This document shows, piece by piece, positions 17,332 to 45,833 of a stretch of DNA of 64,000 bases; the stretch's first letter is position 1; each line of letters begins with the position of its first letter. Source of the stretch: Pyrenula massariospora. Lineage: Eukaryota; Ascomycota; Eurotiomycetes; Pyrenulales; Pyrenulaceae. The DNA lies in contig JAGFMI010000005.1 of assembly GCA_021030905.1 (NCBI GenBank), forward strand, positions 558,001 through 622,000, given 5' to 3'. A model generated the notes under the pieces. It did no database searches. It was not told where the DNA came from and saw nothing but the letters and a program-made list of their open reading frames with translations. The position numbers and the translations under genes were made by a program.

Positions 17332-17621
17332 AGTCTGCCTTAGTACTCTGCTTGAGGTCGGAATTGATAACGACCATCTTTGTGTGTATCCTTTAGCGAG
17401 GAGTTCCGTGGCGGGTCCAGAAGATCATATGGTAATGCAGGTATTGGGTGAATATAGAGATACAAATACATAGCGCAAAATGTCTCTAGATTCGATTTCT
17501 CTAGATTCGATTTTGAAACATTGTACATCCAAACCCACCCAATCTAGAGACGCGAAAATTGACAACGCCATCGCAAAACAGGACGACATTGGATGGGACA
17601 ACCCTCCCAACGCTTTGAACA
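17332..17621. other. Convergent 3' intergenic region
   Basis: A 290-bp gap between the convergent RBM42-like and SLC35C2-like genes. It holds the short tandem and inverted repeats listed separately and no gene. Confidence 0.5.
17483..17512. repeat. 15-bp exact tandem duplication (x2)
   Basis: The unit TCTCTAGATTCGATT occurs twice back to back. An inverted copy, AATCTAGAGAC, lies at 17541-17551 and pairs with 17482-17492 (11 bp). The transcript could therefore form a hairpin between the two convergent 3' ends. Confidence 0.8.
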
Positions 17622-19190
17622 TCATCCCGGGCTCACGTCTCCACTCCGCCTCCCCCTTTCCGCTATCGACCTCCGCACCCTAGCCTCTTCATCTCCCCCT
17701 TCACCTTCAACGTCCTCCTCCCCTCCCCCTCCAACAAGAGCATCCCCCTCCCCCTCTCCACCCTGCTCCGCCTCTCCCTCCACCACCGCATCCTTCCCCA
17801 AAACCTCCTCCCTCGCCTCCCTCCTCATCCTCGTAACCTTCAAATAATTATACCCGGCAATACTCACCAGCGTCACGCACAGCCCGCTGATATTGATCGG
17901 GGTCAGCGGGTCATGGTACCGCAGCTCCGCGGCCGTGATGGTCATGACCTCCTTGAAGATACCGCAGATAGACAACGTGACCACATTCGTGCGCCGCAGC
18001 AGCGCAAACTCGGACGCGATCATGCAGAACGCGATCGCGCCGGGGCAGAGGAGTATGAGCACGCCGACGACGCTGCCCTTGGCGGCGGCGAGCTCGGACA
18101 GGCCGGTTGCGATGTGGGAGGGGCCTTCGGCGAAGAGGGCGAGGGTGAAGAGGGTGGCGAACATGATGGGGGTGAGGAGCCACATGGTGGCGATGGGGTT
18201 GGCGGTGGCGGGGTGGCGGAGGAGGAGGATCTGGGTGAGGGCCCAGCGGAAGCCGGAGAAGCAGGAGGAGAGGAGGATGAGGGTGAAGCCGAGGAGGTGG
18301 AAGGCGGCTTCGCCGGCGACCATCATGACGACGCCGGCGGTCATGGTGGCGATGATGAGGATGAGTTTGAGGGAGGGCGTTTCGAGCCGGAAGAGGAAGG
18401 CGAAGAGGAGGACGAAGGCCAGGGCGGAGGATTTGCACATGGTGTAGAAGGTGAGGGAGATGAATTCGAGCGACATGTTGCCGAGGCCGATGTCGAGGGA
18501 AGTGGCGCTGCCACAGGGGACGAGGCGTGTGAGGTAGAAGATGGGGGTTATGGTTGGGGTTGGAGATTGGGAGGGTGTGAGGGGAGTATACGACGAGGTT
18601 GGCGGCTTCGGGCGGAGACGGGGGATGAAGTATAGGATGGTGGAAGCGAGGCAGAACTGTACGGCCATGTGAAGTGAGGTTGCAAACATTGGATAGCGAA
18701 ACTTGATGCTTTTGTCCTTGGAGAACATCTCCTTGTTGTACTACAGGAGAGTTAGATATAGTGTTACTAGAAGGCTGAGGAGAAGGGCACCTACGATTGA
18801 CAGTGTGATTGAGAAGGTATACCAAGATACTATGAGGAGAGCGTTAACAAGCAGCGTCTTGACGACACTCTTGTCTGCGTCCCATTTCTCTTCCTTTGTC
18901 ATCGAGGATGTACCAGCTATCCGGACGTCCAGCTGATTCCTTGCCATATTCCTCGCATGGTACCTGTTTCTTTCCTTGGAAGTTAAGCCCATTTCTTCGT
19001 CAATCTCGTCTCCATTTTCTGAATTTATATCGTTCATCTCTAGTTCTTCGCTTGGAGATCTTGAGGCCGCGGATCCCTCCTCCTGTCCGACTGCCATACT
19101 GCCTTCATTGGAATTGCTCTGGTGAAGGTCGGCCTCGCTATCATTTGTCCGAAGCAAGGGATCTGGAGGACTCGATTTCCTAGGGTTCAT
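17622..19190 (-). CDS. Drug/metabolite-type nucleotide-sugar transporter, SLC35C2-like (TPT family)
   Basis: Two exons (19190-18795, 18740-17622) with a 54-nt intron give 504 aa. The first ATG in frame is at 19190. The N-terminal 95 residues are acidic and cytosolic. The first helix spans the intron (VVKTLLVNALLIVSWYTFSITLSI then YNKEMFSKD). About nine more hydrophobic segments follow. LDIGLGNMSLEFISLTFYTM and FSGFRWALTQILL are typical of the triose-phosphate/SLC35C branch. The C-terminal 75 residues are Gly/Glu-rich. Family members move nucleotide sugars or related solutes in Golgi/ER membranes; the substrate is not predictable. Exon 2 is very GC-rich at third positions, which opens long spurious frames on both strands. 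Confidence 0.88.
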
Positions 19191-20166
19191 AGTATTTTGG
19201 CAGTACCATTCCAATGGAGAACATAGGTCGGGCTGGTGGAGATGTGTTCACAAGAGTTTCGGGAAGTGTTATGGTGTTGCTTGGATTGCCCAGCTGACCA
19301 TGAGGGTTGAGTTGACCAAAGGGTTGATCATGCCGGACGCACTTATGGCTTCGATACAAGCATTTGATGGCGAGGTCTTAAATTCTGAGTCGTATACAAT
19401 GTTGAAATATCCAGGCGGCTTTTTCAAAGGGCTGCTTGCGACGCTAATTAGACCTCGCCGTCAGCAGTCATGGATCTGAGGTTGGATGTCACGCGCTTAC
19501 CGCTTTGAGGAAATTTTGGAGAAAGACCAGACAGCTTAGGAGACGGACACGACAATCTGTTTCTATTCCGGCCTACACATCGACATGGTCTCTGGCTCTC
19601 CAGGACCTTGTCATAACTTCGTACCGGTCTCAATATCACTGCACTCAAGCCCCGATATAAGTCAGCGGCTCCGGCATTCAATTCGAGCTCTATCACTCCG
19701 CATTGTAGAGTCAGCCTGGATCTGACGGTCTTCACCTTAATTTACCAGCTCGTCGATAACAGATTTATCAAAAGCTTTGTAGTTCCCAAGAGAGTTCTCC
19801 TTCTGCTATGCCATTGTCGAGCTTCATAAAGCCTAGACACGATTATAACAACCTTAGATGGTAACTCTCGCCCCGTGCAGTTCAGTCAACAACGAACGGG
19901 GCTCGATAATTTTGCGAATTTGTTTCTGTCGATATCTGAATAGTATGCTCCCCATCCTAACCCACCTACCCAAATCCACCCACCAAAATCCTCCTTCTTT
20001 CCCCCAAGCCTCGCTTAGATGTGATGAAGACCAAGACAAAGGCACTAGAAACTTTGCAGATGTGCGCCAGACTTCGAACTACGTCCGCCACCATGCTATC
20101 TTCAATACAGCACAACCCTGAGCGCCTTCAATGCAGTGGTGATGGAGAATTGATGTTGATGCTTGC
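19191..20166. other. Intergenic upstream of the SLC35C2-like gene
   Basis: About 975 bp with short unsupported frames only. No repeat or RNA was recognised. Confidence 0.45.
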
Positions 20167-22909
20167 CTAAACGATGCCATAGACGCGCTTCGCGACGTAA
20201 AAGCAGACAACAGCAAAAACGACTAGACCCGCGGTGACTGTTGCAAACACACATTAGCCAAATACTAAATAGACAAGACGACATGCGAAAACATAGAGCA
20301 AAAGACGTACTCGACCAAAACCAATACAAATTATCAATCTCCTGCCCTGGCACCTTCACATTCATCCCCCACATTCCACAAATGATGTTCATCGGCAACA
20401 CAATCGTCCCCAACACTGTTAATTTCCCAAGCACATCCGCCGTCTTTTCCTGCCTCTCGTTCATCCGGATATTGATTTGCGCCAGGTAATTCGAATGCGC
20501 ACGGCTTAGTAGCGTCTCGTAGTGGCTTAGATTGCTGGTCATGGTGAGGATGTGGTCCTGAATATCACCCAGGTAGAGGCCGATTTCAGTCTTGGGCGCA
20601 ACTTCCCATTGCTCGTTACAACGCTTTGCGAAGCCTTTGATGACATCGGCTTTATTGCCCAGGAGGCGGTAAAGACCCATGACTTTTTTCCGCCCCTCGC
20701 CTACACGGCGGAGCATGTCGCCGCCGCTGACATTCTCTGGGCTACCCTCAGGGTTGGATTTCTTCTCATTTATTGACGCGCCTGACGAGGAGGTGTGAGC
20801 ATTCATCTCGTCGGTATCTCTGTGAAGCTTAAGGATGGTGTCGTCGATGTCGTCAACCTCTTCTTCAATGGATTGGATGAGCGGGCCAAAGACGTCAGTA
20901 ATATCATCGATGATGGCATATGAGATCCAATCGGAACTGAGGATAAGATAGTCTTTTAACTGACGGATGCGGCGGCGAACGTTGGCGGGGTGGGGGCATT
21001 GCGAGAAGTGAAAGCTGAGCACGCCTTCTCTGAAGACTACGACGTACATGTTTACGGGTTCAAGATAATCTTCACTGCTTGGATCTTGCTCGAAGGTTCG
21101 GTAATTGATAAAGTAGTAGTTGCGGAATAGCTCGACCTTTTCACGAGCTTCTTCCATCATGATATCTTCCGCTGTCAAGGCATGTATACCGAAGGCCTTT
21201 GAGATGACACGCATTTCCATTTCCGTAGGACATAGCACATCCAGCCAGAAGGTAGGACGAGGACCGTATCTCTTCGTTTTCTGGGCTGATATAGCTCCTT
21301 TCGAAGGGGTTGCATGACCAGAGCCCTCTCGTGACTCAGCCTTCATTTCGCTGATCAGAGATGGCTGCCTTGTCACCTGAGCACTTTGAGACGTTGGGCT
21401 CGTTGGACCCCTGATATTGGTGCTTTGTGTCGAAGGTCCCTCTTCCTCATCATCTGAACTGTAATCACTGAGCTCGGGAGGATCTGGGATGAACAGTTCC
21501 TGGAAGTTACCGCCAGGCTGCACCAACTCCGATATCGTCTGCGCGTGTATTGTACTTTGGAACTCCTCATTGAAGTACGTGAATCGATACGGTGTGTCTT
21601 CTTCGACGCGGTGCCAGGCCGACTGCTGCGGTCTCAGCCTACCTCCAACAAGAACCGGTTCGCTAATCTTCTTAGCCCGAATTCCTTCACTTCTTTCCTC
21701 CTTCTCTTCCCTGCTCCACTCTTCGAACACAGATAGGTCTGGCCATTGGCGACGACGCCTTCTACGAGGGGCTCCGACGTACTCTTCAGGGCGGCCCCGA
21801 GCAAGAAAATCTTCTTCCGCGATTTCAGAGATACCCTCCGTCGGAAAGCATACATCATCCTCGACAGGTAAAGTAAGAGCGCGGCGCCTTCTAAATTCGC
21901 CATGCTCCAACCGAGGAGAAGGAGGGCTTGAAGTGACAGCGCTTGGTCCATCACCATCAACATCAATAACGCTATCATGAGGAGCTTCTCTTCGAAATTC
22001 GGGAGACCCGGGAGCTGGAAACTCTCCAACCATGACATCGTCGTAGCCCCCGATGGTTGGGCTACCTGGTACCGAAGGGGGATTGTTGACATCGTAGTCA
22101 CCTTGCTGATTCTGCCACGAGTTTTCCCGATTAAGAAGGCCCTTTCTCTTCCGTCTTGTCGAGCTGGAACTCGTAGAACTCTTTCGACGGCCAAGCCGAG
22201 TATGACTGCTGCTGAAATGGCTGCTGCTGAACAATCCATAGGATCGGCCAGTTTCGGAGGGACGTCGCTTTCTCGGTGAGGTTCCTATCAGAGGCGTTCT
22301 ATCATTTGTGTCTTGACCTTCATCTTCTGAATTGTTGTCCGAAGGTGGCTGAATTCGGTACATCGAGGATGACTGATTGCTTTCGAAGGAGGGAATACCG
22401 TTGGCATTTCGAGGAGAGCCCACCAAACGAGGATTGACATTGCCCGGGACAGGCGCTCGACTGTCTCGCCGAGGACGCATCAGGGGTTGGTCCCTAAGAC
22501 ATATTAGTTATATAAGGGATTTATCTCCAATTTCGGGATGAAATCACCTATGGTCCAAAAGTGCCTCGCTGTCCAGGCTCGTATTGCTCAAGTTAGCGCC
22601 ATTCGATCCCAGGCGATACAACGACTTCTGCGGAGCCGGTGACTGCCTTGAGGCTATTGTATCGGTTGTCGATCGAGGCACCGTAGGCAGTTCTGGTACA
22701 GTGGATTCCTCTGAAGGAGCTGCGAACGATTGCCTCCTGTTGCGCTTCTTCTTGCCGGCCCTATGCCTTTTCTTCTTGCGAGCCTCATTTGGCTGTTGTG
22801 ACGAGGGCTGGCTTGACTGAATTGCTGTTGATGATTCTGGTATGGTAGGTGGCCTGCCGGAGTTATTCTGAGGTGCCTTGCCAGGAGGTGGAGGAGGTAG
22901 GGGATGCAT
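20167..22909 (-). CDS. CorA-superfamily Mg2+ transporter, Alr1/Mnr2 type
   Basis: Three exons (22909-22548, 22493-20311, 20237-20167) give 871 aa; introns are 54 and 73 nt. The start is the ATG at 22909 (MHPLPPPPPGKAPQ); no ATG lies further upstream in frame. A long basic/Ser-rich cytosolic N-region (about 1-420) carries Arg/Lys clusters. Then comes the CorA core (RPTFWLDVLCPTEMEMR, FGIHALTAEDIMMEEAREKVE, SDWISYAIIDDITDVF). The first transmembrane helix ends in the hallmark GMN (about 830, CGMWGMN). The last exon supplies the second helix (ITAGLVVFAVVCFYV) and stop. It mediates Mg2+ uptake or release at the plasma membrane or, as for Mnr2, the vacuole. Confidence 0.92.
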
Positions 22910-23425: not shown

Positions 23426-26400
23426 TCAAATGACATTACCCATATCCATGCTTGACGGCGCAACGCTATGCACAGACTTGCCCGCATCTATCGACATCCT
23501 GTCGCCGCTCTGGATGCGGACCACCTTTTTGTCCTTGCTCTGTCTTGCAACCAGCACTTGGGCCGGACACACCACAATCTCTTCCTCTCCATCCCCTGAG
23601 TCACTTCCCTTCTTGAACACTGGTGGGAAGAGCACCATCCTAACTACCGCTTGTTGAGCTTCAAGGTCCTCATTTGATACCGTATCCCCGCTCCTCTCAT
23701 TCATCAACGCTGCATTAAAGTACACAAGCTGGGCTAGGTCGCCGTTTTCATCGTATTCCGGTTGATGGGGTGGAAGCATAATAAATTCCGCGCGTTGAGT
23801 TCGCATATCAATTGATAGGTCGACTGCCATTCTGATCACGTTGCGCAGTGAATCTAGTAACTGCGCCTCCACAGCTGGTGAAGGTGGTAAGAATTTTGAG
23901 AGTGTCTTGAAGACCTCCAACACAACCCCTTCAATGTCGCTAGCTCGCTGCTCCTTGAAGCTCTCTCTCTGTATGAGCAGGGTCAAGGTTAGGGCTCGCC
24001 ATCTGCGTACAGCTCTCGGTGGCCCAACTTCGCTTAAATGTTTCTCCAGCGACTTTAGCTTCTGCCTTTGCTCACGATCCATCCCAAACAGATAACGAGT
24101 GAAAATGTACTCCCAGATCATCATCATGACCACTGACATGAAGACATCTCGGCGCTTCACCCGATCTGCAAGGTATTTATTGACATCGTGGTCGTCAAGC
24201 ATGGCGTTTTCGAATCGATCCACGTATTTTTCGTCACGAACTTCGCTGGTGAGTCGACAGACCCTTGTGTCAGAGAGTTTAGAGAATTTGACGACCCATA
24301 ATTGCACGCGTTGGCAAAGCTGCTCGCAAGCATGCTCGAAGTAATCCTCATCCTTGATACTAAGAATATCGTCCGACTTTGAAGAAGATAGGATCTGTCG
24401 TTGAAGTTCTCGGATCTTCTCTTTCGCCATCTCGAGATCGCCTTTCAACCGCTCAATCTCAGAATCGCGGTCAGCCGTAGCAGTCTGAATTTCATGTCGG
24501 ACGATCTCTTCCATGCCACTCGAAAGTTGGGTATGCTGGTCCCGAAGGTTCTCTAGCTCTCTTGATGACTCGTGCCACGTCTGAGAAGCTCGGCTGTGCT
24601 CCGCCTCAAGTTCTGCATACCTTTGAGTATGAGTCGCTTCGATCGCAGCATTTGTCGCGGCCAACCCAGCGTTAATTTCCGTCAGCCGCTTCACCTCCTC
24701 TTCTAAATACTGTAGCGATTGTCTCAGCTGCGCAATATCTGCGTCTCTTTCCTGCAATCGCACTTCTCGAGTTTCTAAAGCCTCTCGCGATGCGCTTTCT
24801 GTCCGGCTCTGGGTGAAATGGAAATCTTCGAGATTCTTCTCAGCCGTGATCTTTGCCGTGGCAAGCAATCGGTTCTCTGACGCCATTTGCTCTAGCTTGG
24901 CTTCCAAATCTTGGATTTGCTGCATGCTTTGTCGTTTGCGCATGCTTGGAGGGCGCGTGGGCGACATGGGTGAGCCAGGTGCCGCACCCAGACCGTCCTG
25001 TTGTACAAGATTAGTCTTCATTTCGAGTCATTGCAATAGACATCATAGGGCTAATGAATGCTTACAAAAGTGTCTGCCATCCCGCGTCCTGCTTCCTGTT
25101 TCTGGTCATTGGTGGGATGCCGAGTCGTTGACGACGGAAAGTCGAGGTTAGATGACTTTGCGCGGGTGGTTGGGCTGGAGCTCGCTTCGCCAAGAGATCT
25201 AGCGGATTTCTTGCCGGGGTCACGTGAATCGTCCCGCAGAGCCTCCGGAAATTGGTCTCTATGAGGACTAAAACTGATCGACTCGTGAACATCGTCAACC
25301 CTCGGCCAAGGACGACTTGTCAAGGCTGAATCAGATATTGCTTCGTCTGTGCGGCGAGGAGGAGAAGGTGCGTGAGGCATTTTCTCACCATGTTCATGCG
25401 ATTCCCTTTCTTGCCCATGGTGATGTGAAAAGGATCCATCCTCCGGAATGGTACCCAGGGACTTGCTCTTCGGAGACATACTTCTAGAGCTTTCGTGCGT
25501 ACCTGGTCCGCCAGAGAAGTCGGGAACGCCAAGGATAGGACCATGATGTGTGGATTCATAAGCTTGAGGGCTGCCTGGCCGATTGTCAATGTCGTGCTGT
25601 AGACGTTCGCTGCTACGTCGGTGAACGCTAGGAGATCGATGGAGACCGGGAGACTGTGAGCGCAGATGCGCATCACCTTTACCAGGCGTCTTGATAGTCC
25701 CCGGGGTGCGGGCCGAAGGAGACGAATCGAAGAGGCCAGATGACCTATCTTTAGAAGTAGAATCGACTGGCGAGGGATGCCTTCGAGCCGGCGTTTCGGG
25801 GAAAGAATCGACGGTGTCTTTAACGTGATGCGTTTGGTGTTCAGTGGGAGGCGAAGGCGGGATATTGCCCTTTGTAGGAATGGTCTTTTCTAGATCTCGA
25901 GACATAGAGTACTCATAGGTCGGGTCCATTTCACTTCCGAGGTTTGCACCACTCAGTCCTGGATCATCCGATGACTTGCGCGATCGAATACTTCGCCTGC
26001 GCTCTCCTCGCAAATTCTCATCTGAGCTCGTTGGAGTGATCGGCCTCAGAGGTCTAGCGCTAGAAGATCGCAACTGAGTGTCGTGATAATCAGACGCTTC
26101 CGCTGGTGAAACGAGCGGACTTGCGACGTATCCGCTATCTCGAACCGGCTGATGAACCTCTCTTACTTCTGGGGAGTCAATCATGTGAAGTCCGCTGTCT
26201 CGATATTCTTGCGGAATAGGAGAGGAGCGGTTGGACCGTGGCGGAGAACCTTTCGGCGAGCTTGTCCAGGAAATGCGGTGGGAAAGTCCGAATTCACGAG
26301 GATCATCAAAATCTTGCGTTTGGTTGTCAGATTCCCTATTTGCATCGCTTGATGTTGGTTTCGTTCCCAGCGCGCTTGCTAGTCCCAAACCTGCCGCGAC

Positions 26401-29400
26401 AGACATCGCCAAGGCTTCCGCAGAAGATTCGGTGCCTTTCTTTGCCTTTTTCTGCTCTTCTCGATCTGGTTCTTTGTCTTGTTCAAGGTCTTCTATTGAA
26501 GACCATGTCCGAGCTTTCTTTCCTTTCTTTCCCTTCTTGCGTGTCCCATCGCGATGTGTCAATAGGGCAACTTCTGCAGACGGGACATCAGCTTGATCAG
26601 AATCCATAGATGCGACCCCAGGTTGCATAGCCACAGTGTGTTCCCCCAGAGGAGGGGGAGAGGCATGTAGATGTCTTTCCTCATCCAATGCTTGGCCGGA
26701 AGGACTTGCACTCCGAGGCGGTGTAAGTGCTGGGGTCATTGGAGCATCGTAATTGAACTGCCCTGTAGTCTCAATCGGTGCCTTCGACGTGTCGAAGCTC
26801 GATCGAGCTCCATTTTCATGAGTGGTATCCCTTCGGCTGGCATCGTCAACGTTTCTAGAGCCAACTGCTTCTGCAATCATAACGTCTGGTTCCAAATGTG
26901 ACGAGGATATGACCGCAGAATCCTCTGCCGGAATTCGAGACAGAGCGTCGTCAACAGATTCACTCCGCGATGGATCTTGCATTTGTGTAGAGTCAAATTC
27001 AGAGCCTGTCTTTCCTTTTCCTTTCTTGTCTTTCTTCTTTTTCTTCGCCGGGATGGCCCAAAGATCTTCTTCGGTAGTGGCTGGCTTGGTGCCTTCATAT
27101 TGTCCTTTCTCATCTCCAGTAATTGGCTGACTAGGTCGCTCAACCTCGGCTTCAACATCCTTTGTCACCCCTGCGTCAAGGAAGGCAGCTTCCGACTTCG
27201 ATTTGTCCTTTTTCTTCTGCTTTTTGCTCTTTTTAGAAGGCGCGCTCCAAGAGAACTCCTCAGGCGTAATCTCCGCCCGTGCCTCGGACAACGAGGATTC
27301 TTCTGGCTTTTCATTGAACGCGACTTCCTCAATTTGGTCTTGCGTTTTGTCTTGCAGCGTCGACTCTACCAACGGCATAGGCTGGCCTTTCTTCTTGTTT
27401 TTCTTTTGCTTTTTGCCTACGACAGGGGAATTGAGTATATCATCGAGTTCTGGTTTAGCTTCGCCAACATCTTGCAGAGATCCACGTTCCTCATCAGTGC
27501 GGGTATCACGGCTGTGCTCGGCAGGGCCTGAAGCATCACCAACCGAGTCCGAATGCTTTTGAAAGTCACTGTCCATCGTATTCCTCATTGCTACTTTATT
27601 CTTCCTCTCTTCATCACTCATAAACCGGGAGCTATGTTCGACCTCGCGAGTGTTCATGGAGACCCCTTCAACATCGCCGAGCCGAGAACTTTCTTGTACA
27701 ACTACATCGAGGTCTCGTGAGGTCCCGAAGGAACGCTCGCCTGTTTGACTTGGCAATGTCTCATCCTTAAAACTCGTGTTGTTGTCTGAAGTCTCTGTCG
27801 CGGTTCCCCTTTTCTTCTTCTTGTCTTTCTTGCTCTTCTTAGAAGCAGCGGGCCAAAGATTATCCTCTCCATCGTCAGGTTGTGTGGTAATTTCTGGGGC
27901 TTCCGCTGGCGTGGAATGCCGCTCAGGATCAGCCTCGGCGTTTCCGTGGGCTCTTAGAGTCTCTTCTGTTTGCTCCGCTTGGGGTGTCTCGGCGGCGCGT
28001 GATACCATGGGAGGTTCATCTTCATCGGAAAACTCTTTCTGTGTCCCCTTTCTATTCTCGTTTTTATCCTTCTTACTCTTCTTTGATGTCGATGTCCACG
28101 TGTTCTCCCGAGGCTGCTCAGGGCGTATACTAGGTTCTTCAGAGTCCGGCAGCTCTTTAGATATGGTCTCTGCAGCCGATGCAATCTCGGGGGTAGGCTC
28201 AGCCCTTGCGGATTCAGCATCTATTCCATCCACGGCGGGCCTGTCAATTTGGGCTGACAACTTCTTTCTCTTGTCCTTTTTGCCTTTCCTACTTTTGACA
28301 GCCCAGGCAGACCACTCATCGACATCTTCGCCTTGAGCTGTAGGCTCTTCTTGCAACCCAGTCCCTTGAAAAGTAGGTATTGCAACATCCGCATCAGGGT
28401 CAATGCTGCGGCCAAGATCTCCATGCGGCTCAATGCTCATATTTGATTTCGGATAATCCCCATCATGAGAAGCTCTAATGTCGGTAGGTGGAGGCTCTGA
28501 AGGCGACTTGTGGTCAACCTTTTTCTGACCTTCATGCTCGGCATGTGCTGCTTCAATTTCATTACGTACTGTGGCCGCAAACGTTGCCGCTTCCTGCTGC
28601 AATTCACGAGAGCCGGCTCGGCTGTGGAAGACCTGGTGCTCTTGGTCTAATTCTTCTTGGAATTCATTAGATCCGAGGACAGGTCTTTCAGGCTCTAGTA
28701 CTGCGGTGGAGTTCTCATCCGCTTCTGTAAACTTGTTCTGCTCCAAAGATGCATCTGCCTCATCGCTGACTGTAGCCTCCTTAGTTGCATACTCATCCTC
28801 AAGAGCAGACTGCATGCCCTTCTGCTTGCTGCCCCCGGCTGCCTTTCCCTTAGCCGGCGTGGCCCAGAAGATGTCCTCAGACGTCTCCTCTATTGGTCTC
28901 GCTAGAGGCATGGACCCAGCAGTAGCTTGTTTCTCAAGAGCGTCAGAGAATCTGTCAGGTTCAGATTCGTGATCCTGCGATTGATCAGAAGATTGCTCAG
29001 TATTCGAAAGAGGGACCGCAAGCTCGGGTGAACTCTTGATATCGTTTGTCGTTTGCTTCCTCTTTTTCGAGCCCTTTTTGGGCTTTTCGATCGGGGCCCA
29101 CGACGATTCTCCCTCCTCAGCTTGTGAAGTCTGTTCTGCTGCGACTATCTTGGATTCTGATGTACCTACATCTGGTTGAGATCGTGATTCTTGGGCCGCG
29201 GATAGTCCTTTAACCTTCGCGCTATCAGGTCCTTGGTCTAAAGAAGCGTCGAGCTTTTCTTGAGAGGCTATTGGAACGTAAGCTGCCTTTTTCTTCCTCT
29301 TGTCCTTCTTGCCTTTCTTAGTTGGAGCCCAGGAGAACTCGTTATCTTCAACAGCTTGTGTATGCACAGAGATTGTGTCTTTTGGTCCTTCCTCGGCAAC

Positions 29401-32400
29401 TGGCGATTCTTCATGTGGCACTGAGGGCTGCAGAGACGATGACTTCTCATGTACGCTAGCAGGTAAATCGCCTAACTCAAGCTTCTGAACTGTCTCCACA
29501 GGATCTGAAGCGCTTAGACCTTCGGCTCCCTTAGCCTCTGCTCTTGGAGCTTGTGAAAGTCCGTCATTTCCCGCCTGTTCTGGCATTGTTTCCGCGGTCT
29601 GTAGAGCAGGTTCTGCCGCATGTGGCGGATCGTCCATACCGGCGGGGCCTGAGAGACTATCTGAGCCGTCATTAAGACCAACCTCGCGAGGCGTGATTGA
29701 CATTTCGTCTCTGAGTGCTGTAGAGCTTTCAGATTCCTCCATCTGTTGTTGCTGCTTTCGCCTGTCCTTCTTGATTTTCTTTGATTTATTTAGGGGACCT
29801 TCCCAGAAAGATTCTGCCGCTTTGCTGTGAGGTGGAACATCGTCGCCCTCAGCAAGTGTCGCGGAGTCCTTGTTCTCTTCTTCGGAGATTGAGAGTCGGA
29901 ACTCATCATCAGCACTTAAAAAGGTTGATGCTTTCTGGGCAGGTGTCTCTGACGGATCGTTATCTGCTGCTGGTTGAGATGTGTCAACCCTCACATCGCG
30001 AGAGTCGTGGCCAAAGACAACAGGAGCATCGGCCGATCGATGAGGCTGTTGCGGAACGTTTATTGAGACCAATGCGGGAACATCTTCTGGGTAGCGTACA
30101 ATGTCGTTACCAGGGACTGTAGGTGCAACATCAGGCAGCGCAGCTCTTGATGGTGATGCATCCGGAGCAGACGTGTCATAGCCAGCTTTAACTTGAGAGG
30201 AAGCTACTTCGGATAGTGCCTTCTCTGCAGGCTCGTACCCTTGGGCAGTCTGCTCCTGTGATTTTGCAACTTCACCATGGCCACTTTCGTTGTCCGACCA
30301 GCTGAGAGCAAGCTTTTTCTTATTCTTTTTGCTCTTCTTGCTCTCTCTCTTGCCTGGTGCAAAACTCACTTCAGGAGGTGGAAGTTCAACCGGAGAATCT
30401 CGCACAGGCTCATCAGGCGTAGCTGACCGCTTTGGAGAGGTGAAGTCAAGGGTCTGACGTTTCCCTTTCTTGCCTTTCTTCTTCTTCGTAGTCGGTGCCC
30501 AATCAACATCATCTTCTGCTTCTTTTGCTGTCCGGTCAATTGGCTCCACGGGGGCTTCAGATGAAGTCGCAAGTGGCTCCTGAGATTCATAGGGCGGTGG
30601 CTCGATGGACTGATTCTCCAAACCAAGCGCGATCTGGCTTGGCGCTGTGGACTCCCGTTCAAGTGATTCAGGCGCCTTCGAACTTGTGGTGTCCTCAATT
30701 GGCTCTTCATGTGCTTTGATCGAGGCGGAATCTACGAATGTTCTATCGTGAGATTCTCCCGAACCTTTGACAGCCTCCAAGACGACTTGCTCTGGAGCAG
30801 ACGCTGCAGCAACCAATTTGTCGTTGTCTGATAGGGAAGCAGTGTCTTCTTCCCGATCAGCGTTTTTCTGTTTTTTACCGCGCTTCTCCTTCTTGCTCTT
30901 CTTCGTTGGAGCCCACGAAAAATCTTCAGTTTTGAGTGTCTCTTCTCTCTCTAACTGAGAATGGATGGAAGGCCCTGTAGAAGGTGTCTCTTGGCGCTCA
31001 GTCTGGACAGATGTCCCAGCATCCCCATGTTGTGTATCATTAATCCCTTCTACGATGATTTGATCGGATCTAGGTAACTCAATTTCATTTTTAGACGTAG
31101 TGACTTCAGAAGACAATCCGGAAGAACGTTTCTTCTTGTCTTTCTTACTCTTCTTGCTGTTTGTCCATGAAAGCTCGTCTGCCGATCCTTTTTGTTGGGC
31201 GAAGATAGTATCAGGTGTCTCAACAAGCTTATCAGAAGTTTCAATAGGCAACGCTGCCGTAGATCCTGGCTCTGGTATAGGCATGGTCTCTAGTGGCTGT
31301 CTTTCCTCTCCCTTTTGGATATTTACCGTTGGCCCCCTTTCCTCGTGTAAGGATCCCTGTGGTGATATTCCCCCCTGGGATACATCGTCGATAGACAATT
31401 CTCTTTCTGCTTCTCGGGATTGGACGTCAATTTCAGCGATCGGCGTTGCATCGACAGTTCCTTTGCTAGGGCTAATTGAAGACAAGTCCCTATCACCAAG
31501 CGCCTCCGATACACCACCCTGATTCTCGTCGAATGGGTCACGGGCAGAAGGCTCGCTCAGATCAAGGGTAACCTTCTTTCCCTTCTGCCCATTCTTGTTC
31601 TTTTTAGAACCCGATCTGGGAACAGGGGCGGCCTCAGCTGCATTTGGTTCCACGATGCCTCTGGAGAAATCCTCACCTGTTTGTTCTCTGGCTTCCAGGA
31701 CAGACTCCAACGGTGCATCTTCAGGATGTAAAGTCGCAGCAAATGATTCCGGCTTTACGTCAACGTCCAGGTTAGAAGGTACGCCGCGGACAGCTTTTGC
31801 ACGTTCAAACGCAACTTTGAGTGGCGATTCTGTTGGCGGGCTTCTGGGTCGAAGAAAATTTTCAAGGTCATCGTCCTCATCTTCGGGCAAAGGGATAGAC
31901 TCTGGTATGACAGAAGAATCTCTCCGTTCAGACAAATGGGCCGACACATCAATATCCGAAGTTGAGTCCCTCGTGGCCTCCAAAGCGAAAGGAGCAATAT
32001 TGGGGTCATATTGCATAGTACGAGCTGTTGGTGAGCCAGGTCCCCAATGTACGTGAGCCGTGTCTGCCTCTGAAGCAGCGGGTGCACTTGGGACTTCTTG
32101 AAGGTGCATCGGTACTTCAGAGAGAGTGGCATCTAGCTCTGGCTTTTGGAGTGTGGATGCCTCGTTCTCGTCTGAAGGAGTCGATCGGTGCTTTGTATGG
32201 ATAGTTTCATTCTGTATTGGTTCTTCATCGGGGATTTGACGACTTTCAGTAATGTCGGCAGGCGCTGGTTGATGCTTGACAGCTTCGTCCCCAAATTTAT
32301 CAGCGCGATGCAGGAAAGGGCTGACTTGGACATCTGCCAACTCTCGATCAGCTGAGTTTAGAGCTTGGATGTAAGACGGAATTTGTCCAGCGGTCTCAGA

Positions 32401-35400
32401 AATATGTTTTTCTTGACTCAAGACTTCCCCTGAGGGATCTTCAAGGTGGAGGGAAGCTGACGCTTCTGGGCTTCTCATAAAATTAGGGTAACTCGGCAGT
32501 GACGATTGCTTTGCGCTAGGCTCAAGTGTTTCCGGTGACGCTTCTTCAGCAATTTTGGATGCATCATGGAGCGAATCTTCCAAAAGGTCTTCGGAAGCCT
32601 GAACTTGTTCGTAGGTTGCTTCATCCTCACGTTGTTGTTGATAAGGCGTCGCTTCGGGAGCTAAGTCAAAGCCTTGTCGTTCCCTTTCCTTCTTTTCCTT
32701 CCTCTTGTTCTTCTTCGACTTCTTGAAAGAGATATTTTGGAATTGTATTGGCTCCTGCTCAAGGGAAGGCCTGGCACTTGAAATTTTCTCTGAAGCGATG
32801 TCATCTCTCAAGACCTCTTCCTCTGGTAAGCTCCGTGACTCAGGTCGACCATACTCATATTCTGCGCCCAGACGCAATGACTGAGGCTTGTCCATCTCTC
32901 GATCAGCACCTTTCTCTTGTACGACAGATGTAATGGCAGCAGCGGTCGCTCCGGCAGCAGCCCCTGCTCCAACGGTCTCCCAAAAGGGCAGCCCTGGTTC
33001 GCCTTGTATTCTTTCCTTAGCCTCACGATCATCAGCCTCTTCAGGGGTGGGCAGACCCATTGGTGACACTCGGGCTTCATCTCTACCCTGCTGAGACGAG
33101 GGATCTTCCAGAAGCTCAGAAGGAGAGTGGAACTCATACTTCGGCTTCGGCTTTTTGACTTCTTTCGGAAATTCAGACTGGGTGGGTGTCGTCTGCTGCG
33201 AGTTAAGATAATCTGGGGACCTTGGTGGAGGAGCGCTTCCCCATGAATAGCGATTTGGTTGAGTACTGAAATAGTCCGAGGAGCCGGTGGAATCTCTCGA
33301 AGCTTCCACCTCTCGGTCAGCAGCCGCGCGAAGGTCCTCGATTGAGGGGTGAGCAGAGCTCGTCCGGCTTGACGGAAGTGAGGGATAAGTCTCTGTAGGT
33401 CCCGCTTCCTTCTTGTAACTGTGCTGCTCGACAAGGAAAAGAGGGCGAAACTCTTTAGATGACCTGAATTCCATAGACCTTGGACGAGGCTGACGGGATC
33501 TGACGACCGCTTGCGGGGTGTCGGGAGATTCTAATGATGGAGAGCCTGTTGATCCCGTTCGAATATGCCCTGGTGTAAGAGGTGGTCGACGGAAGTTAAT
33601 AGGAACTGCCGTTGGTGAGGACGTTGCCGTCTGACTCGATGTAAGGTCACTTGTTTGTAAAGCGGATAATCTTCTTAGTCGTACAGACTTGTCTACCTCA
33701 GGGGTGGAAGGAGATCCGGACCGGCTGTCAGCTTGCGGCCTAGTGTCCACCATTCTTTCTGTAGATCTTGGGGAAACAGAACGGCTCCTAATAGACGACA
33801 ATATTCTTGTCGAGTTATCCTCAAAGTCGGCTTGGACGGGACCTTGTAGATCATGGGCAAGCTTTGAAGCAGGGGCAGTCGGCCCCGAAGCACCAGTCTC
33901 AATCGACAATGGCATTTCGGGGCGCTCACCTAAAAAAGACTGCATGTCTTCGTCGGGGATTGCTTTTTCTTGAGCTTCTTCAAAGACATCATTATCATCA
34001 GTCCCTTGCGTCTCTTCGCTCAAGGATTTGCGCTTGGACTTCTTTCTTGATTTTTTGCGAGGTGTTTCGAATGTTTCTTCGGCGATGTCTATACTGTTTC
34101 CACGTCGCTCTTCTTGTTCTGGCGCCGCTTTGACATTAGAGCTTTCAGACGCACTCTTTACTACATCGAAAAAGCTACCTATACCTTTTTTATTCGACTC
34201 CTTGTCGTCACTGAATTTCGCAGGGGAGGATACAGTTGATTCAGCTTCGTCAAAGTAGTCATTACCTTTCTTTGATTTCTTCTTCGACTTTTTGGGTTTC
34301 TCTGCTTCGTTCATTTCGTGTTCTAGGGCTGCTGCAGCCACGATATTGGCAAACCCACCTGTGTCCTTCTTTGACTTTCTTCTCGGCCCCTTCGCGTCCG
34401 AGAATCCGTCAAGTTCTGGCGCAGAAGCAGCGACTGATCTAGCCTCTCTGTTGGCTGGGTCGAAGTCCTCAGACTGTGATTTGCGTGTCTCTTGCTGTCT
34501 TCCAGCTCCAATAGAGGACTCGCCATCCACATCCTTCGCTGCCGTATACAGATTTTCAATTTCGGCATCTTGTCTTTGCGCATCCTTGGTCTTGGTAGAG
34601 GACCAAGAGACTCGTGACATGGCTTCATCGGCGCCAATTTTGTCAAAGGGCGCAGTCTCGTCCTTCGGACGAGCAGCTGGCGATTCACCCTCAAAATAAT
34701 CAAAAACGTCGTAACCGCCCGGCATCTTAGACTGCGATCGAGCGTCTTTTTCTTCGGACGCTAGCGAAATATTTTCGTCTGCCGACCTCGCCACTTCGCG
34801 ATCAGCAGGTCGTGCTTTCCTCTCTTCCGAGGGAGATTCGACTTCTCCTTCGACAAAACCGATGGAGGGAGCGGCAGAATATGTTGCTATCTGAGTACCA
34901 AGGTCTGAAGTTGTTTCCACATAAGGCGTCTGGTACACAAAGCCCTTGTCGGAGCTTGATACAAAGTCGCGCCGGTGGTAATCTGGGTTATCAACTACAA
35001 TGGAAGGATCAAACCCAGCTTGTTCAGCGCCAGCCGCTAGAGCTGCTGCAAACTCTAAATCTCGATCATGCTTTTTTCCTTCCGGTGACTCTGACGTATC
35101 GACTTCTATAGATTCAGCAGCTTCAGACTTCTTTTTGCGGCGTGAATGTCTTGAGGATTTTTCTTCATCATCACTCCAAATCCTGCGCTCGGGCACCGAA
35201 TCCATGCCGTCAGCATCTTCTTCAGTAACCTTGCCGTTTGGCTTGGTGTCTTCGTGAGGCACGCTTTGGGATGGTTCTTCAACTCCAACTGGCTCCACGG
35301 CCACAATGACTGGAGATGCGTCTCCTCGCACAGATTCTCCAGAAATGCTCACAGGAGGCGTAGGCCGTACAAGTCCCAAGCGTGGCACAGGCCAGGGGAA

Positions 35401-38400
35401 GGCTTTGGGATCATCTCCAGGCTGTGAACCAAAGGGTCGGTAGAGATCAGGCTCGAAGGGCGGTGGACTAGTCGGGGAAACTTCCACAATATTAGGTATA
35501 GTAGAGACTGGGGGCACATCTCGCGTATCTGTGGATCTCGTGCGAAGCTCTTCGGGAGTAAAGAAGTCTCCATAACTATCATACACTGGGCTGGTCTTCA
35601 CTCTTGAAGCTGCCATTTTCGCGATCTTTTTCTGCTTCTCCGAGCGTGATTCTGGGCTTTCATCGACAGTTCTTTCCTGCGGAGACGATGCGTCGCGATG
35701 TTTTCGTGACGAATCCTTTCGGCTACGTCTTCGTGATTCTTTCGAGTCTTCTTCTTCAGGCCTATCTTTGTCCGCCATGACGCTGCTCGCAGCTACAACT
35801 CCAGCCCCTGCTAGCCCAGCTGCGATGACCGGTGTTGCCCAGGACCTTTCTGAAGGCTTTCTTCTTTTTTCAGCATTTTGCCTGTCTTCTTCATCCCGTA
35901 GTCTCTCCAACTCCCTCTCAATATCATCGTAGTCTAGTGGGGGCGGTTGACTACCAACCGAAGCTCTCTTTTCGGCAACATCTACATCGTGTGGCCGATC
36001 CTTGGGGTAGTGCTCCAAAGTTGATCTACGGCGATGTGATCTCTCTTCAAATTGAGAAGAGGCTGTTGGGCTGTGAAAGCGGTCCACAGGATCGCTATCT
36101 GAGCGCCTCCGCTCAGCCCGTCTTCTTTCCCGATCTCTATCCCGCCGTTGCTTCTCAGCTGGCTCATCAGGAACATCAAACTTGACAGAAGCAGTTCGAT
36201 CTCGTTTTGAAGAGCTCCGACGGGACAGAATAGAGCCTTCAATTAGCTCCGGGACCGCTGTAGTGACGGAGACTTCTTGATCACGCGAGCGCCGAGGATC
36301 GTCGGCATTCCTGGAAACGCGTCTGATGTCGCTATCAGCTCGCTCGTTGTCCTTCCCGCGCATATGCGTTGGAGAATCAGTCACTGATGCGTAAGGCATA
36401 AACTGAGCGGGGATCGAAGGCTGAGAGTGATGGCGAGAGGTGTATTGCAAAGAAGGCTCGGATGTGTCGTAAACAGATGAGGAAACTGGAACCACTGGTT
36501 GAGGTTGCTGGATAGGAACACCAGGTCGTGCTGTAAAAGGGCCACCCTGGGTCCTCGACGAGGCTACAGAAGTTGCTCCGGTTACGTCGAACATACTGGG
36601 ATCGCTTGTCGGAAAGGGGAAGACCTGTTGAAGGGAAGATGAGCTACCAGCGCTAGGAGCAGGTCCGGTATATCCATCTCCCGGCCGCGCTTCATAAAGC
36701 CCTTGGTCGACCAGCGAGCTGTGATTCCTTCTTGACGGCTGTCTATCCTTTTTCGCGTCTAATTCTCCCACCCATTTGTCCGGCTCTGGTCCGTTGGATA
36801 CGAGCGACTCTCGACTCTGACCGAATGCAAGTGCAGAGTCGACAGACAAAGCTTCATCATCCGAAGCGTCTTCCCAGTCAGAATCCTCTCCAACCAACGG
36901 GCGAGTATTTCTCGAGTTCGACCTATGTTTCCTCCTGTCGTCGGCATTATGTGGTCTATGCCTTGGCTCCTTCACTGCAACAAGGTCCGCTTTATATTTG
37001 CCTTTTCGTGACTGGTGAGCACTCGCTGCGGCGAGGGCTGCAGCTGTGGCTCCGAGTCCTATTATCGCAGCATCTGCGTTCTGGTCCTTTCTCGGACTCT
37101 CCTTTGATTTCACATTACTTTTTCGTTTGATTCTTCCGCCTCCAAACGCAAGATCGGCATCAGAGGAAGAAGAAGAAGAATTATTAAATGTAAAAAAACC
37201 TTTGCGAGTCTTTCTGTGGGATTTTTGCGCATTCGCAGAAGACGCCGTGAAGAAAGACCCATATCCAGGTGATGCTTCAGTTGTTAGGTTGACGTATGAC
37301 GTGCTAGGATTGACGTGCTTCATACGGTGATGTTTGTTGGTTGACCCACTACTGCTGCTAGAGCGTCTTGACCTTGTAGACTTTCTAGACCGTGTTTCGT
37401 CATCTAAAAGTGTAATTCTCGTTCGGGAGCCGTGCCTCGAATCAGACAGAGAACTCCGGCGGGTGACCCCATGTCGCGCATAGTCGTCGTTACTACGCCT
37501 CTTCACACGGTCTTCCTCAGCATATCGATGACCACGTCGAGAGTCATCATGGAGCGGACGCCCTGATTGAATGCTGTACGTATCTTCAAAGTCTTTCTTA
37601 TTGAAGACAGACTTTCCGGCTTGAGCAAGTCCATAGCCAGCCAAGCCAGCCGCTCCTGCAGCCGCCAATGTTGATTTATGACTAGATCTCCTTCTCCGGT
37701 CATCATCAGAAGAGCTGTAGCGGCTCAGCTTATCGACTCTAGTAGAGCTCCCATACCGACTCCCGCCGGAAAGGCGTCGCTTGTAGTGGTGCCTGCGCGG
37801 GGCGTCACGGGGACTTGAACGGGGGTCAAAGCAATATTTGCAAACACCAATGTACTCCGTGTACTCCTCGTATTGGGAAACTCCCTCTGGATCTTTAAAA
37901 AAGTCAACAACTTTTCTTAGAGGTCCACGATGTCGATGCTTGTGCTGGAGTAAGGATGTTTGCGACCCGTTAGCCGCGAAATGATTGTCTCCCAAGGGCT
38001 CATGTTGATGGTGATCATACGCAGCGTTCTCAGCCTGCGTGTAGACATGGTTACTGTTCGGCCCATATGAAGAATGGTGCGACGCAACGTATGCACCAGC
38101 TGCTGCCGCTGCTGCACCATATAAGGCAGCATTTGAAGAGCCAGACGATTGTTTAGGCGGTTTCTGAGACTGATCTAGATGATGCTGTGGGATGGCCGAA
38201 TTGTTTCCGTGCAGATGTGACTCATGCGAAGCGTGCTCTGCATAAGCTCCCGCTGCAGCCGCAGTCGTTACCGCACCGTATAATGCTGCATTTGTAGAGG
38301 CTGGCGTCTGGCTATTAGACTGTGAAGGTCGGTCTGGGAACGCTTGCGGCATATTTGGGTTATAGTGGCCATCCATTTGTGACCCCTGAGACGCATGCTC

Positions 38401-39456
38401 GGCATTACCACTGATCCCTCCAGACATGTAGTATCCTGCATTCAAACCTGACAGCCCATTTGAGGGGCCTGGTGAGGAACGCGGACTTGGTCTGCCAGGT
38501 TGAGCTGACGCGGACATTTTGGATGGGTTTCCAAGAGACGGTTCGGCTTCGAAATCACTGTTATTTGCAAAGAAGGATGCAGCTGCGCCTACCTGCCCCA
38601 GAGTGCTTGGTTCAACTGGTGGAGCCGCATCAACGGTGGGTTCATGAAGGTGAGGCTCTGCGCCAACGATTATCGACGGAGCGGCGGGTCTAACTCCTGG
38701 TTGGTCTGCCACCGATTCGCCATGATCGCCATAGTAGTCAGCTGCTAGGCCTGGCGGTCGGTATGGCGCTGTACTCGATTCTGGGAATTGACCTGGAAAT
38801 TGATGAGGAATATGCGGGTCAAAATTCTGGTCGGTCGTAGGGACCATTGGGATCGATGGATGGTGTGAATATTGGCCAAGTTCGGGAGGCGAACCAACAG
38901 CTCTAGACGAGGCCTGGGATCTGCCACTCTCGGACTTTCTCTTTTCTGATTCTCGAACGCTATCCTTCCTCTTAGGGACTTCTTTGCTATCGCGTCGCTT
39001 AGGCTCTTGATCCCTGCCAGAAGAGCGCCTACTTGGTTTGCGTTCGCGACTACTGCTTCGATGACGCCTACTTTTTTCTGACCTGCTATCACGATCTCCG
39101 TCTCGTGCATTCTGTATTCTTGGTCTCGTAAATTCATCATCCATGCTCCCGTTTCTGTACAACTCCGGAGAGTTATAGGCGTTTTGCGCATGCGTATCCG
39201 CCGTCGCGTAACTCGAAGCTACGGATGGCGCAGCGGTCCCAGCAAAAGCGCTTCTTGAGGTAGAGGAATAAGCAGAGGAGACGGGCTGAAAGCCCTCGCG
39301 AGCGCCTTCACGTTTCGATGACTTGCGACCATTTTGTACCGCAGGCGGAGAGTCGGTACGCGAGCGCGCTGCGGATTTGCTGCTCTTCCGTAGATCTGAA
39401 CGAGGTTCGGAGGTCTCTGAGCGGCCAGAAGACCGCCCAGTAAGTGTTTTCCACAT
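23426..39456 (-). CDS. lah: Giant Lah/leashin-like Woronin-body tether protein (also annotated as 'involucrin repeat protein')
   Basis: Two exons (39456-25066 and 24997-23426) with one 68-nt intron (GTAAGC donor, CAACAG acceptor) give about 5320 aa. Exon 1 is one uninterrupted 14.4-kb frame. The N-terminus (MWKTLTGRSS, then Arg/Ser-rich) leads to a conserved Cys-containing patch, GVCKYCFDPRSSPRDAPRRH. It is followed by RKTRKGFFTF and several Ala-rich segments (AAALAAASAH). The middle is low-complexity Ser/Glu/Lys with about 18 degenerate Trp-x-Pro/poly-Lys repeats. The second exon has a long coiled coil (about residues 4820-5005) and a conserved globular end (YDENGDLAQLVYFNAALMNE). In Neurospora and Aspergillus, orthologues tether Woronin bodies to the cell cortex or septal pore. 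That role is inferred here from this architecture. Confidence 0.85.
26490..34310 (-). repeat. Degenerate lysine-rich repeat array inside the Lah-like gene
   Basis: About 18 copies of a loose motif, acidic-(F/L)-S-W-A-P-x-K-K-(S/G)-K-K-(D/E)-K-(R/K)-K, with 100-400 acidic/Ser-rich residues between the outer copies and much closer spacing in the core. Examples are EDFSWAPTKKSKKEKRGKK, NEFSWAPTKKGKKDKRKKK and DNLWPAASKKSKKDKKKKR. Approximate positions are 26530, 27035, 27220, 27410, 27820, 28080, 28290, 28850, 29080, 29315, 29780, 30335, 30470, 30890, 31130, 31600, 32700 and 34285. Copies are densest at 27.0-31.6 kb. Linker sequence is not conserved. Confidence 0.75.
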
Positions 39457-40235
39457 GCTTCAGCTCTTGATCGTAATCAGTGTCCTCCGCAACTGTTTGT
39501 GTTAGTGTGAGGGCATCAGGTGTAACAAGCTCCAGTCGAGGTGTGTGAAGGTTTGCCGCGATTGGGAAGTTCCATGAGCACAGAACTCAACTTGCCGGGT
39601 ACAGGTGAGCCGGCTGAGGATCTTGAGAATGGGAGAATAATTCAAAGGTTCAGGAAGGTTGGCGCAAACGATCGCAGGCGCTGCTTGAGCGCTGATGGTA
39701 ATCGAAGTTTGTTGGGCTCGGCATGATTTCTTGCTCTCCGCCGCCACCGAATATCGCGGCCACTAAAGGTTCGAAAAGGCGGATGGCTGGTCGTGATTGG
39801 AAGAGCCTCATGCAGTGCGCTTGGACAACGCATCCTACTACCGAGTACTACGAAACTTTTCAGCTTTCCATGGGTCGCACACGTGAAGGACATTCTCAAA
39901 ACGCTCTACCAGAGCTCGTTCCACTTCTCCACCATGGCTAATACTTTTCCACGTCGTCGCGCCTTCTATGGCGATGCATATGGCAAGCAGACACATTACG
40001 CTTCCTATCCAAACTATCACAACGATTCGACCTGAGCATCGGCCATTGGAGTATATCTCTTCTCGTTCTCTCAAATCAAGGCCTTCGCCGAGATACAACG
40101 CCTTTTACAACGAGTCAATCAATACCGCGCTACGTCCAAGTCATAATCGTGAATTCAACTTCACATTTCTTCTGCTGAAGGCTTAAGGCAGCAGGGAGAG
40201 CGGAAGTGATTTTGAATGTGAACACCCGTGCGAAT
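39457..40235. other. Intergenic upstream of the Lah-like gene
   Basis: 779 bp. Holds the presumed promoter of the giant gene and the 3' flank of the aminopeptidase. A CACGTG hexamer lies near 39880. No gene was recognised. Confidence 0.45.
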
Positions 40236-43368: not shown

Positions 43369-45833
43369 TCATATAAATGCTCCACCTCCGCCTCCTCCCC
43401 TCGGCCTCTGATTTTCAAACCTTTCTCTCCCTGCCAAATATCTTGCTTCTGAATCACCTCTCCTTCTTCCTGCTCGGTCTTCATCCGGACTGTTTGCCTC
43501 CGGAGGTACAATCTGCACCCTCGGCTGAGGATAGCCGGAAGAGCTCGTCGACGAAGGTGGAGAATGGTCGGACGAGGCTTGCGGTCGAGTCTGGGGCAGT
43601 TGCCTCGTGTCGACCCGGGGAGGGCTCTGCCTCGTCGCAGTTGTGGCTAGTTGAGGGTGGATCGCTGTTCGCGGAGGGGAAGGGATCTGCCAGTCATCAT
43701 CTTCGTCATCTTCTGAATAACTGGGGTCACGGGTGCGGGTAGCGCGGTATGATGAGGTCTTGCTCTCCTTGTCATAATAATGATGCGGATCATGGGAGGA
43801 GGAAGTGGAGGCGGTAGAAGTGGAGTCAGAACGAGCACGGCTAGGATCGATGAGCATAGATTGGGAATCACCCTTAACTAGGCCCAATCTCTCCTCCTCC
43901 GTAGCTGTCTTGAAAGCCTTCTTCTGCTCGTTACTCGACTGCCGTGGAGTATGGGGAGGTCGAGGAGTAGCTTCAGGGTCGTTGTTTCGCGATCGGTGGA
44001 AGACATTTTGGAAGCTGAATTGGCGGCGTGAGGTGTGAGGCGGTTGATTTGGTGTTAAGCTATCGTCACGGGTGGGAGCATACCGATTTCGAGTATCGGA
44101 ATCGGCGAATTCAATGGACCGACTTTCTTTGGAGCCTTCACTATGCTGCTTCTTTACGAGACTTGCGGGAAGCCCGTAGATGTGCTCCTGTGCTTCCTCT
44201 AGACTGCCAGGTCCGTACGGCTCGATTGGAGTGTTCCCATCTCTGCTCCCCGCTTTTGGCGCGTTGACCGTGATCTCGGTAAGAGGGACTGGGTGCATTG
44301 GACTGCTCACATAGGCCGTGTCCTCACTATGGTCAGACCGGGGTGTTTTCCGAAGGCCTGGGGAAAAAGCATTCTGCGCTCTGTGACGGATGTTTTCGAA
44401 AAAGTGAACGGTGTCTCTATCATGATCCTCACTCTGAGGAAGTTCTTCCTCGGTTGGAAAGTGAGACATGCCAAGCGGAGGATGGAGCGTCTTTCTTCTT
44501 TGAACTGGAAACGTTTGTGCTGATCCGATGACAGTTTTTCGTCTTCGAAGGCCGTCCCATTCGACAATTTCGTTCTCTCCAATAGGCTCCATGTCTTGAC
44601 GTTTTTCGTCTCGTAGTCTCTTCGCTTCCTCTTCCTCCATTTTCTGACGCGAGACGGATATCCTCCGAATGATAGCCGCTGTGCCGCGAAGCGCATCTGC
44701 CTTCGGTTCGGATTCGGGTTGCTCTTGCTCGGCAACTTCACGAACTTGGTCAAGGTCGCCCTTGAATACGGCCGCATCGGGAACGTCTTTCGCTGACTTT
44801 GAGAGCTGTAGCAGGACGACACCACTGCAAATCTGGAAGAATCCAAGAACTACAGTGGTGATTGTTACCGCGGTCCCCTTGAACCCTTGGAATAAAATGG
44901 CGGAAGTGACGATAGTGGCACTGGTAAAAAAGACGTAGTAGGTTGGCGTGACAAGCGCGGCGTTAAAAAGATTGAGAGCTTTCTATATTCGCTATTAGAG
45001 GATTACTAGAGCAGTATCGGCAGAAAACTTACGTTAAGAAAGATGATCTCCGTCAACAGTGTGGTGATGACGAAGACCAAGAGGACGTAGAGAAACCACT
45101 GATTGAACTGTGGTTTTCCACTCGCCTGTGCCAGCACAGCGGCTCCTAGACCTTGGGTCGCAACAACACTTAGCCCTCCAATAAGGCTACACACACTCAG
45201 ATAGACAAGCATGTTCTTCTTTCCATATCGAGGTCCTACCCATAACGCGATGAATGCTGATCCGACGATGATTACCCCTGCATAGCTGAGAAAACCTGGC
45301 GCAATAACGAAGTGCTGCATATCTTGGATTGTGTTGACTGAGGATTGTTCAGGCGCATTCAAGACGATGACGACAGATCCAACAATGCAACTGAAGCATC
45401 CAATCTTTCCAACAAAACTGAGTCTCTCTTTAAGGAAGATGGCTGACAAAACTGTGGTGATGACGACTGACAGTGCTCCCAGAGGAGTAACCAGGATGGC
45501 GTCGACGAAGGCATATGCAACGAAATTGCAGATCTCCCCTATAATCATCAATGTCATCCCTGTCCACCACCATGCGTTCTTCAGATATCCGTAACCATCA
45601 CCTGCCTCTTCATTGTACTTGACATTCGCTTTCAGTAAACCCAGCTTCTTCAAAATAAAGCTGACACCTATAAAACAGCCAGATGCTACCGCGAGTGCTA
45701 TGCCAATGAACTTATAGACGGGTGGCCGGCTGTCTTTTGAGTCTTTGGTGTCAGGTTTGCCATTCGTAGTTGAGTTTTCAACTCTGGCGAGGAGTTGGTG
45801 GGAGGCGACGAGGACATGTGCGGCGGTATCCAT
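43369..45833 (-). CDS. NIPA-family (DUF803) Mg2+ transporter with long cytosolic tail
   Basis: Two exons (45833-45033, 44982-43369) with a 50-nt intron give 804 aa. Residues 35-360 hold about nine hydrophobic helices with NIPA landmarks: GIALAVASGCFIGVSFILKK, WWWTGMTLMIIGEICNFVAY, LVTPLGALSVVITTVLSAIF, LNAPE, and after the intron KALNLFNAALVTPTYYVFFT. NIPA proteins move Mg2+ and related divalent cations at plasma or endosomal membranes. The remaining roughly 440 residues are disordered, Ser/Pro/Arg/Asp-rich and end in a Gly run (RPRGGGGGGAFI). That tail is much longer than in animal NIPAs. The intron falls between two helices and phase is kept. Confidence 0.9.

Follow-up and report, generated by a model that had tools for sequence, protein, structure and literature searches.

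A giant, single-intron gene of Pyrenula massariospora that reads best as an unsplit Lah/leashin gene

Pyrenula massariospora carries, on the minus strand of the 64,000-nt stretch of contig JAGFMI010000005.1 analysed here (the window), a two-exon gene for a protein of 5,320 residues, and the best reading of it, judged from the C-terminal sequence, is that it is very probably the single, unsplit, full-length Lah/leashin gene of this fungus. We base membership in the Lah family on C-terminal peptides found in Aspergillus fumigatus Lah (AfLah), on the positions of a coiled coil and a proposed membrane segment, on a CorA-type neighbour and on the presence of HEX1 in the genome; an earlier note on this DNA had proposed the same identity, which the C-terminus bears out. 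The gene adds an undivided member to an established family and does not represent a novel type of system. Having a clean one-intron Lah gene whose C-terminal exon is precisely located helps annotation, in which genes of this kind are readily broken into pieces, and allows the ancestral form to be compared with the split form of Neurospora.

Gene model and C-terminal identity

The gene model consists of the following parts:
25066..39456, minus strand: lah exon 1, 14,391 nt, residues 1-4797, from the stop-to-stop frame and the coding signal
24998..25065, minus strand: lah intron, 68 nt, phase 0, GTAAGC...GACTAAT...ACAG, recovered by the splice scanner
23426..24997, minus strand: lah exon 2, 1,572 nt, residues 4798-5320 plus the stop, counterpart of A. 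fumigatus LahC509

Two minus-strand stop-to-stop frames contain the exons, one of 4802 aa (25051-39459) and one of 533 aa (23426-25027). Joining the exons over the 68-nt intron, which has a consensus donor, branch site and acceptor, keeps the phase and yields 5,320 aa (~583 kDa), so that the gene of about 5320 codons with a 14.4-kb exon and one intron near the 3' end, as first noticed, proved exact. At the start, an in-frame stop is followed by one codon and then by the first in-frame ATG; any coding part further upstream would therefore need another intron. In the same DNA the other sense frames contain 96 and 386 stops and the antisense frames 131-178. With codon usage trained on seven other open reading frames of the window, one of them without a Pfam match, the proposed frame beat the five others in all 94 windows of 300 nt. 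These stop counts and the codon preference indicate that the frame is not due to chance. G+C was lower at the third than at the first codon position in 11/11 blocks of 1200 nt. The unanimous codon preference rules out a chance reading frame or a pseudogene, and it equally speaks against several genes within the one exon, where the longest other frames are small (240 aa on the same strand and 209 aa on the opposite strand).

The C-terminal comparison uses seven AfLah peptides translated from primers that Leonhardt et al. tabulate (PMC5345055), whose distances from the C-terminus are known. It places these features:
24053..24082, minus strand: MDREQRQKLK, residues 5103-5112, identical to A. fumigatus Lah
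24086..24148, minus strand: site corresponding to the transmembrane segment proposed for AfLah, residues 5081-5101, by position and similar sequence
23429..24286, minus strand: region equivalent to LahC288, which targets the septal pore, residues 5035-5320, by AfLah primer peptides
24392..24922, minus strand: coiled coil, about residues 4823-4999, by heptad windows, collinear with the AfLah coiled coil

MDREQRQ starts A. fumigatus LahC219, and an overlapping reverse primer extends it to MDREQRQKLK (PMC5345055); here it is identical at 10/10 positions and lies 218 residues from the C-terminus, against 219 in AfLah. In the proposed AfLah membrane segment, 240-220 residues from the end, a mutation primer gives IFMSVVMTMV when its two changed residues are read as Val-Val according to PMC5345055, and the protein here has VFMSVVMMMI at 239 residues from the end (7/10 identical). 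At the stop, AfLah STMDISNVI is matched by SSMDMGNVI (6/9 identical). In 20,000 shuffles of exon 2, no shuffled sequence scored as high as any of these three peptides. Two further matches are weak: FSKLSDT at 286 for the LahC288 start FSKHSDH (23/20,000 shuffles) and DGLGAAP at 523 for the LahC509 start EGWGESP (90/20,000), both of which have higher-scoring sites in other parts of the protein than the collinear one. For the LahC1044 peptide, further upstream, no counterpart was found in the lah product, as a poorly conserved middle would lead one to expect (PMC2690989, available sections).

The coiled coil in the C-terminal exon, which the earlier note had predicted, was found by the heptad scan, with 67 of 77 high-scoring windows starting in the 4800-4999 bins. 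It lies within 308 consecutive residues that include no proline (4815-5122) and did not stand out in a coarser test of periodicity. Both the coiled coil and the proposed membrane segment are collinear with those of AfLah (PMC5345055). Hydropathy plots are usually read with a cut-off of 1.6. Segment 5081-5101 is moderately hydrophobic (best 19-mer 1.35), less so than Ala/Gly-rich stretches at 796 (1.53) and 1210 (1.94). A single-sequence fold of the last 304 residues was uninformative (pLDDT 35) as to the globular C-terminus proposed in the earlier note.

Other aspects of the A. fumigatus gene (AFUA_2G08060, 'involucrin repeat protein') can be compared through published SNPs with genomic and codon positions (PMC8227032, in its available part). 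Between codons 2316 and 4679, the differences in genomic and codon position agree within 2 nt, which means that A. fumigatus lah is free of introns there over at least 7.1 kb. Between codons 779 and 2316 the same listing leaves 142 nt beyond the coding length, so that A. fumigatus lah seems to carry an intron in that part, unlike the gene here, where the equivalent part has none. The LahC509 start would be residue 5030 if V5303 and the construct lengths are taken at face value, and one SNP, listed as non-coding, is found 10-12 nt beyond the last base of the codon before that residue. This fits a last A. fumigatus intron at the same place as here, assuming that both papers number the gene alike. 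The two genes are alike in the place of the final intron (by this indirect evidence), in a long uninterrupted middle exon and in a CorA-type gene next in number, and they differ in length, both overall (~5,320 aa here against a computed ~5,538 aa for A. fumigatus Lah) and in the C-terminal exon (523 against 509 aa).

The neighbour in question is the following:
20102..22507, minus strand: 3' neighbour of lah, CorA-like Mg transporter open reading frame (Pfam, E 2.7e-34)

Yeast YKL064W is MNR2, a CorA-type gene. AFUA_2G08070, the next number after A. fumigatus lah, is paired with YKL064W in the accessible part of PMC3289889, and the locus numbering suggests that a CorA-type gene stands next to lah in A. 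fumigatus too. The genome also contains HEX1 (C31, L016), with E 2.1e-100 to the hexA structure 8qlu and a C-terminal SRL. The name hexA is used in Aspergillus. HEX1 is what the Lah reading leads one to expect of a Woronin-body fungus. On the other flank of lah from the CorA-like gene there is a NIPA-like gene of Mg-transporter type (43369-45842, minus strand), and a leukotriene-A4-hydrolase/M1 peptidase gene is present between it and lah.

Several points weigh against the Lah reading. The size of 5,320 aa lies below the range of 5,936-7,480 aa of Ng et al. (PMC2690989, as far as available), and the net charge is -160, whereas the Neurospora crassa leashin is far more acidic at -1088 in the same source. 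Neither exon matches Pfam, the LahC1044 peptide is missing, and the Spa10 end motifs were not found. Short patterns for the latter gave nothing across the genome in one search and, in another, a single hit containing two mismatches, while the reversed control pattern produced two hits. A PDB sequence search with exon 2 returned one match (E 0.45), Rfam gave no match, and in viral and prokaryotic collections 1, 58, 22 and 9 stretches fitted a pattern, none of which was confirmed as a relative; no N-terminal relatives were found in those collections either.

Introns, transcripts and function

It is possible, if unlikely, that the lah frame holds more introns than one and that the true protein is somewhat shorter. 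Six of the seven newly found Neurospora lah introns are in frame (available text of PMC2690989), the 142 extra nt of A. fumigatus lah point the same way, and a scan for candidates of up to 400 nt in exon 1 gave 11, two of them in frame (237 nt, 33929-33693, and 171 nt, 28792-28622). Against this, the coding signal is unbroken, and a scan for consensus splice sites, which does pick up the real intron, found no in-frame intron of 45-160 nt; synonymous shuffles contain 2.7 of these on average, and 25/200 also give 0.

The earlier note had also pointed to Neurospora, where the locus is reported to yield two transcripts (PMC2690989, available sections), and had suggested internal promoters or alternative splicing. 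An arrangement of this kind would give a LAH-1 Woronin-body tether and a separate LAH-2 scaffold of the pore or tip, made from an internal promoter, which would not show in the sequence analysis used. When intron 10 of the Neurospora locus is spliced, an exon of 2,607 bp becomes open in an alternative frame just before the lah-2 promoter (same source). Here, within what a scanner of consensus sites recognises, the nine frame-shifting candidates open no more than 65 codons, and no other same-strand frame within exon 1 exceeds 240 aa. As there is no long alternative-frame exon, the sequence gives no sign of a split of the Neurospora type and does not support the suggested alternative splicing. 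The split is moreover described for the Neurospora/Sordaria clade only, in the accessible part of PMC2690989. We regard two transcripts as quite improbable. In other respects the N. crassa LAH-1/LAH-2 locus is alike, with a giant protein, a disordered middle with repeats and a coiled coil (PMC2690989, in part), and with a conserved C-terminal targeting region common to LAH-2 (PMC5345055).

C-terminal homology alone would fit LAH-2 as well. The C-terminal part of A. fumigatus Lah is common to LAH-2 (PMC5345055), which recruits COT-1 and GPI-1 to the hyphal tip according to the literature available in part, and the protein might then act mainly as a scaffold of the septal pore or hyphal tip that does not bind Woronin bodies. 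We give this very little credence: 4,797 residues lie upstream of the C-terminal exon in one frame, own-genome searches reveal no second gene related to either end, and A. fumigatus lah, which encodes a Woronin-body tether (PMC5345055), is matched in both the C-terminus and the 3' neighbour.

As a single, unsplit Lah gene, the locus would be expected, by analogy with published systems, to give one transcript and a giant, mostly disordered tether. From the work on A. fumigatus and Neurospora, the N-terminal part would hold Woronin bodies, the coiled coil of the C-terminal exon would probably bundle Lah molecules, and the LahC domain would dock at the rim of the septal pore, on the plasma membrane. 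The long acidic middle may serve as a flexible leash holding the plugs close to the pore up to the moment of wounding, with an elasticity that is proposed in the literature. Ng et al. drew an analogy with the PEVK segment of titin, which is likewise a charged, disordered linker proposed to be elastic, and no homology is claimed (PMC2690989, available sections); the analogy is termed speculative in the accessible part of PMC5745230.

Protein anatomy and the Trp-Lys motif array

The 5,320-aa product has the giant size and the acidic, low-complexity middle of the Lah type. Its first two 500-residue blocks carry a net positive charge (+3 and +27), and all such blocks between residues 1001 and 5000 carry a net negative one. 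Two further features were placed in exon 1:
37762..37944, minus strand: N-terminal patch, residues 505-565, with C-x-x-C at 539/542; putative function
26977..31191, minus strand: acidic stretch of disordered type with 11 acidic-Trp-x-Pro-Lys-cluster motifs, by motif count against block shuffles

The protein contains six cysteines (539, 542, 5021, 5025, 5044 and 5274), and the pair at 539/542 is the only Cys encoded by exon 1. The N-terminal Cys patch that had been noticed is therefore present, in the form of one C-x-x-C pair; against Pfam it gave just one match, below the cut-off, which we take as chance. Similarly, the middle had been called repeat-rich, and what stands of this is a short degenerate motif: there is no self-match at E<=1e-3 and no tandem array in the gene, the three tandem arrays of the window all lying outside lah.

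The gene is otherwise ordinary, and the array of this motif is its less expected feature. The motif tryptophans are at residues 2764, 2848, 2986, 3218, 3376, 3453, 3715, 3787, 3868, 4070 and 4133, with a mean spacing of 137 residues, and 11 motifs were observed where 1000 block shuffles average 0.28 and never exceed 3. The motif is unlike the Neurospora repeats LPVDEDLDLLPALPES and PEEVELPASP, as printed in the available part of PMC2690989, and a Trp or Lys-rich motif of leashins is not described among the literature listings on leashins. A role of the motif as a sticker for bundling or docking is conjecture. We would put forward, as a rather doubtful idea, that the array acts as a multivalent set of stickers, in which the Trp/Lys patches pair with acidic spacers or with membrane or pore proteins. 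Lah molecules could then bundle and shorten reversibly, perhaps under phosphorylation, and the leash would be an adjustable spring and not a passive string. If common to other Lah proteins, the array would be a concrete target for studying how the tether stretches, bundles or contracts.

Seven Ala/Gly-rich hydrophobic stretches (at 440, 596, 796, 1210, 1470, 2158 and 4346) are present in the otherwise hydrophilic exon 1 product, compared with a mean of 1.7 and a maximum of 5 in 500 block shuffles. They could serve in membrane contact or self-association.

The rest of the genome and of the window

A paralogue elsewhere in the genome was considered and rejected: own-genome searches with both ends scored six and three candidates, and neither query, the C-terminal exon or the N-terminal 1000 residues, matched anything but the lah locus itself. 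Mpv17/PMP22 matches, which are candidates for WSC, number five in the genome. The HEX1 exon (L016, 967-1872, minus strand) is overlapped by an open frame of 301 aa on the opposite strand (1024-1941, plus strand), which is probably a by-product of codon usage.

In the window, long open frames are present on both strands at 17619-18843. The minus-strand frame at 17622-18740 matches triose-phosphate transporters, and the other two have no Pfam match. At 1459-5486 (minus strand), adjacent frames encode a Mad3/BUB1 homology region and a kinase domain, which probably belong to one BUB1-like gene.
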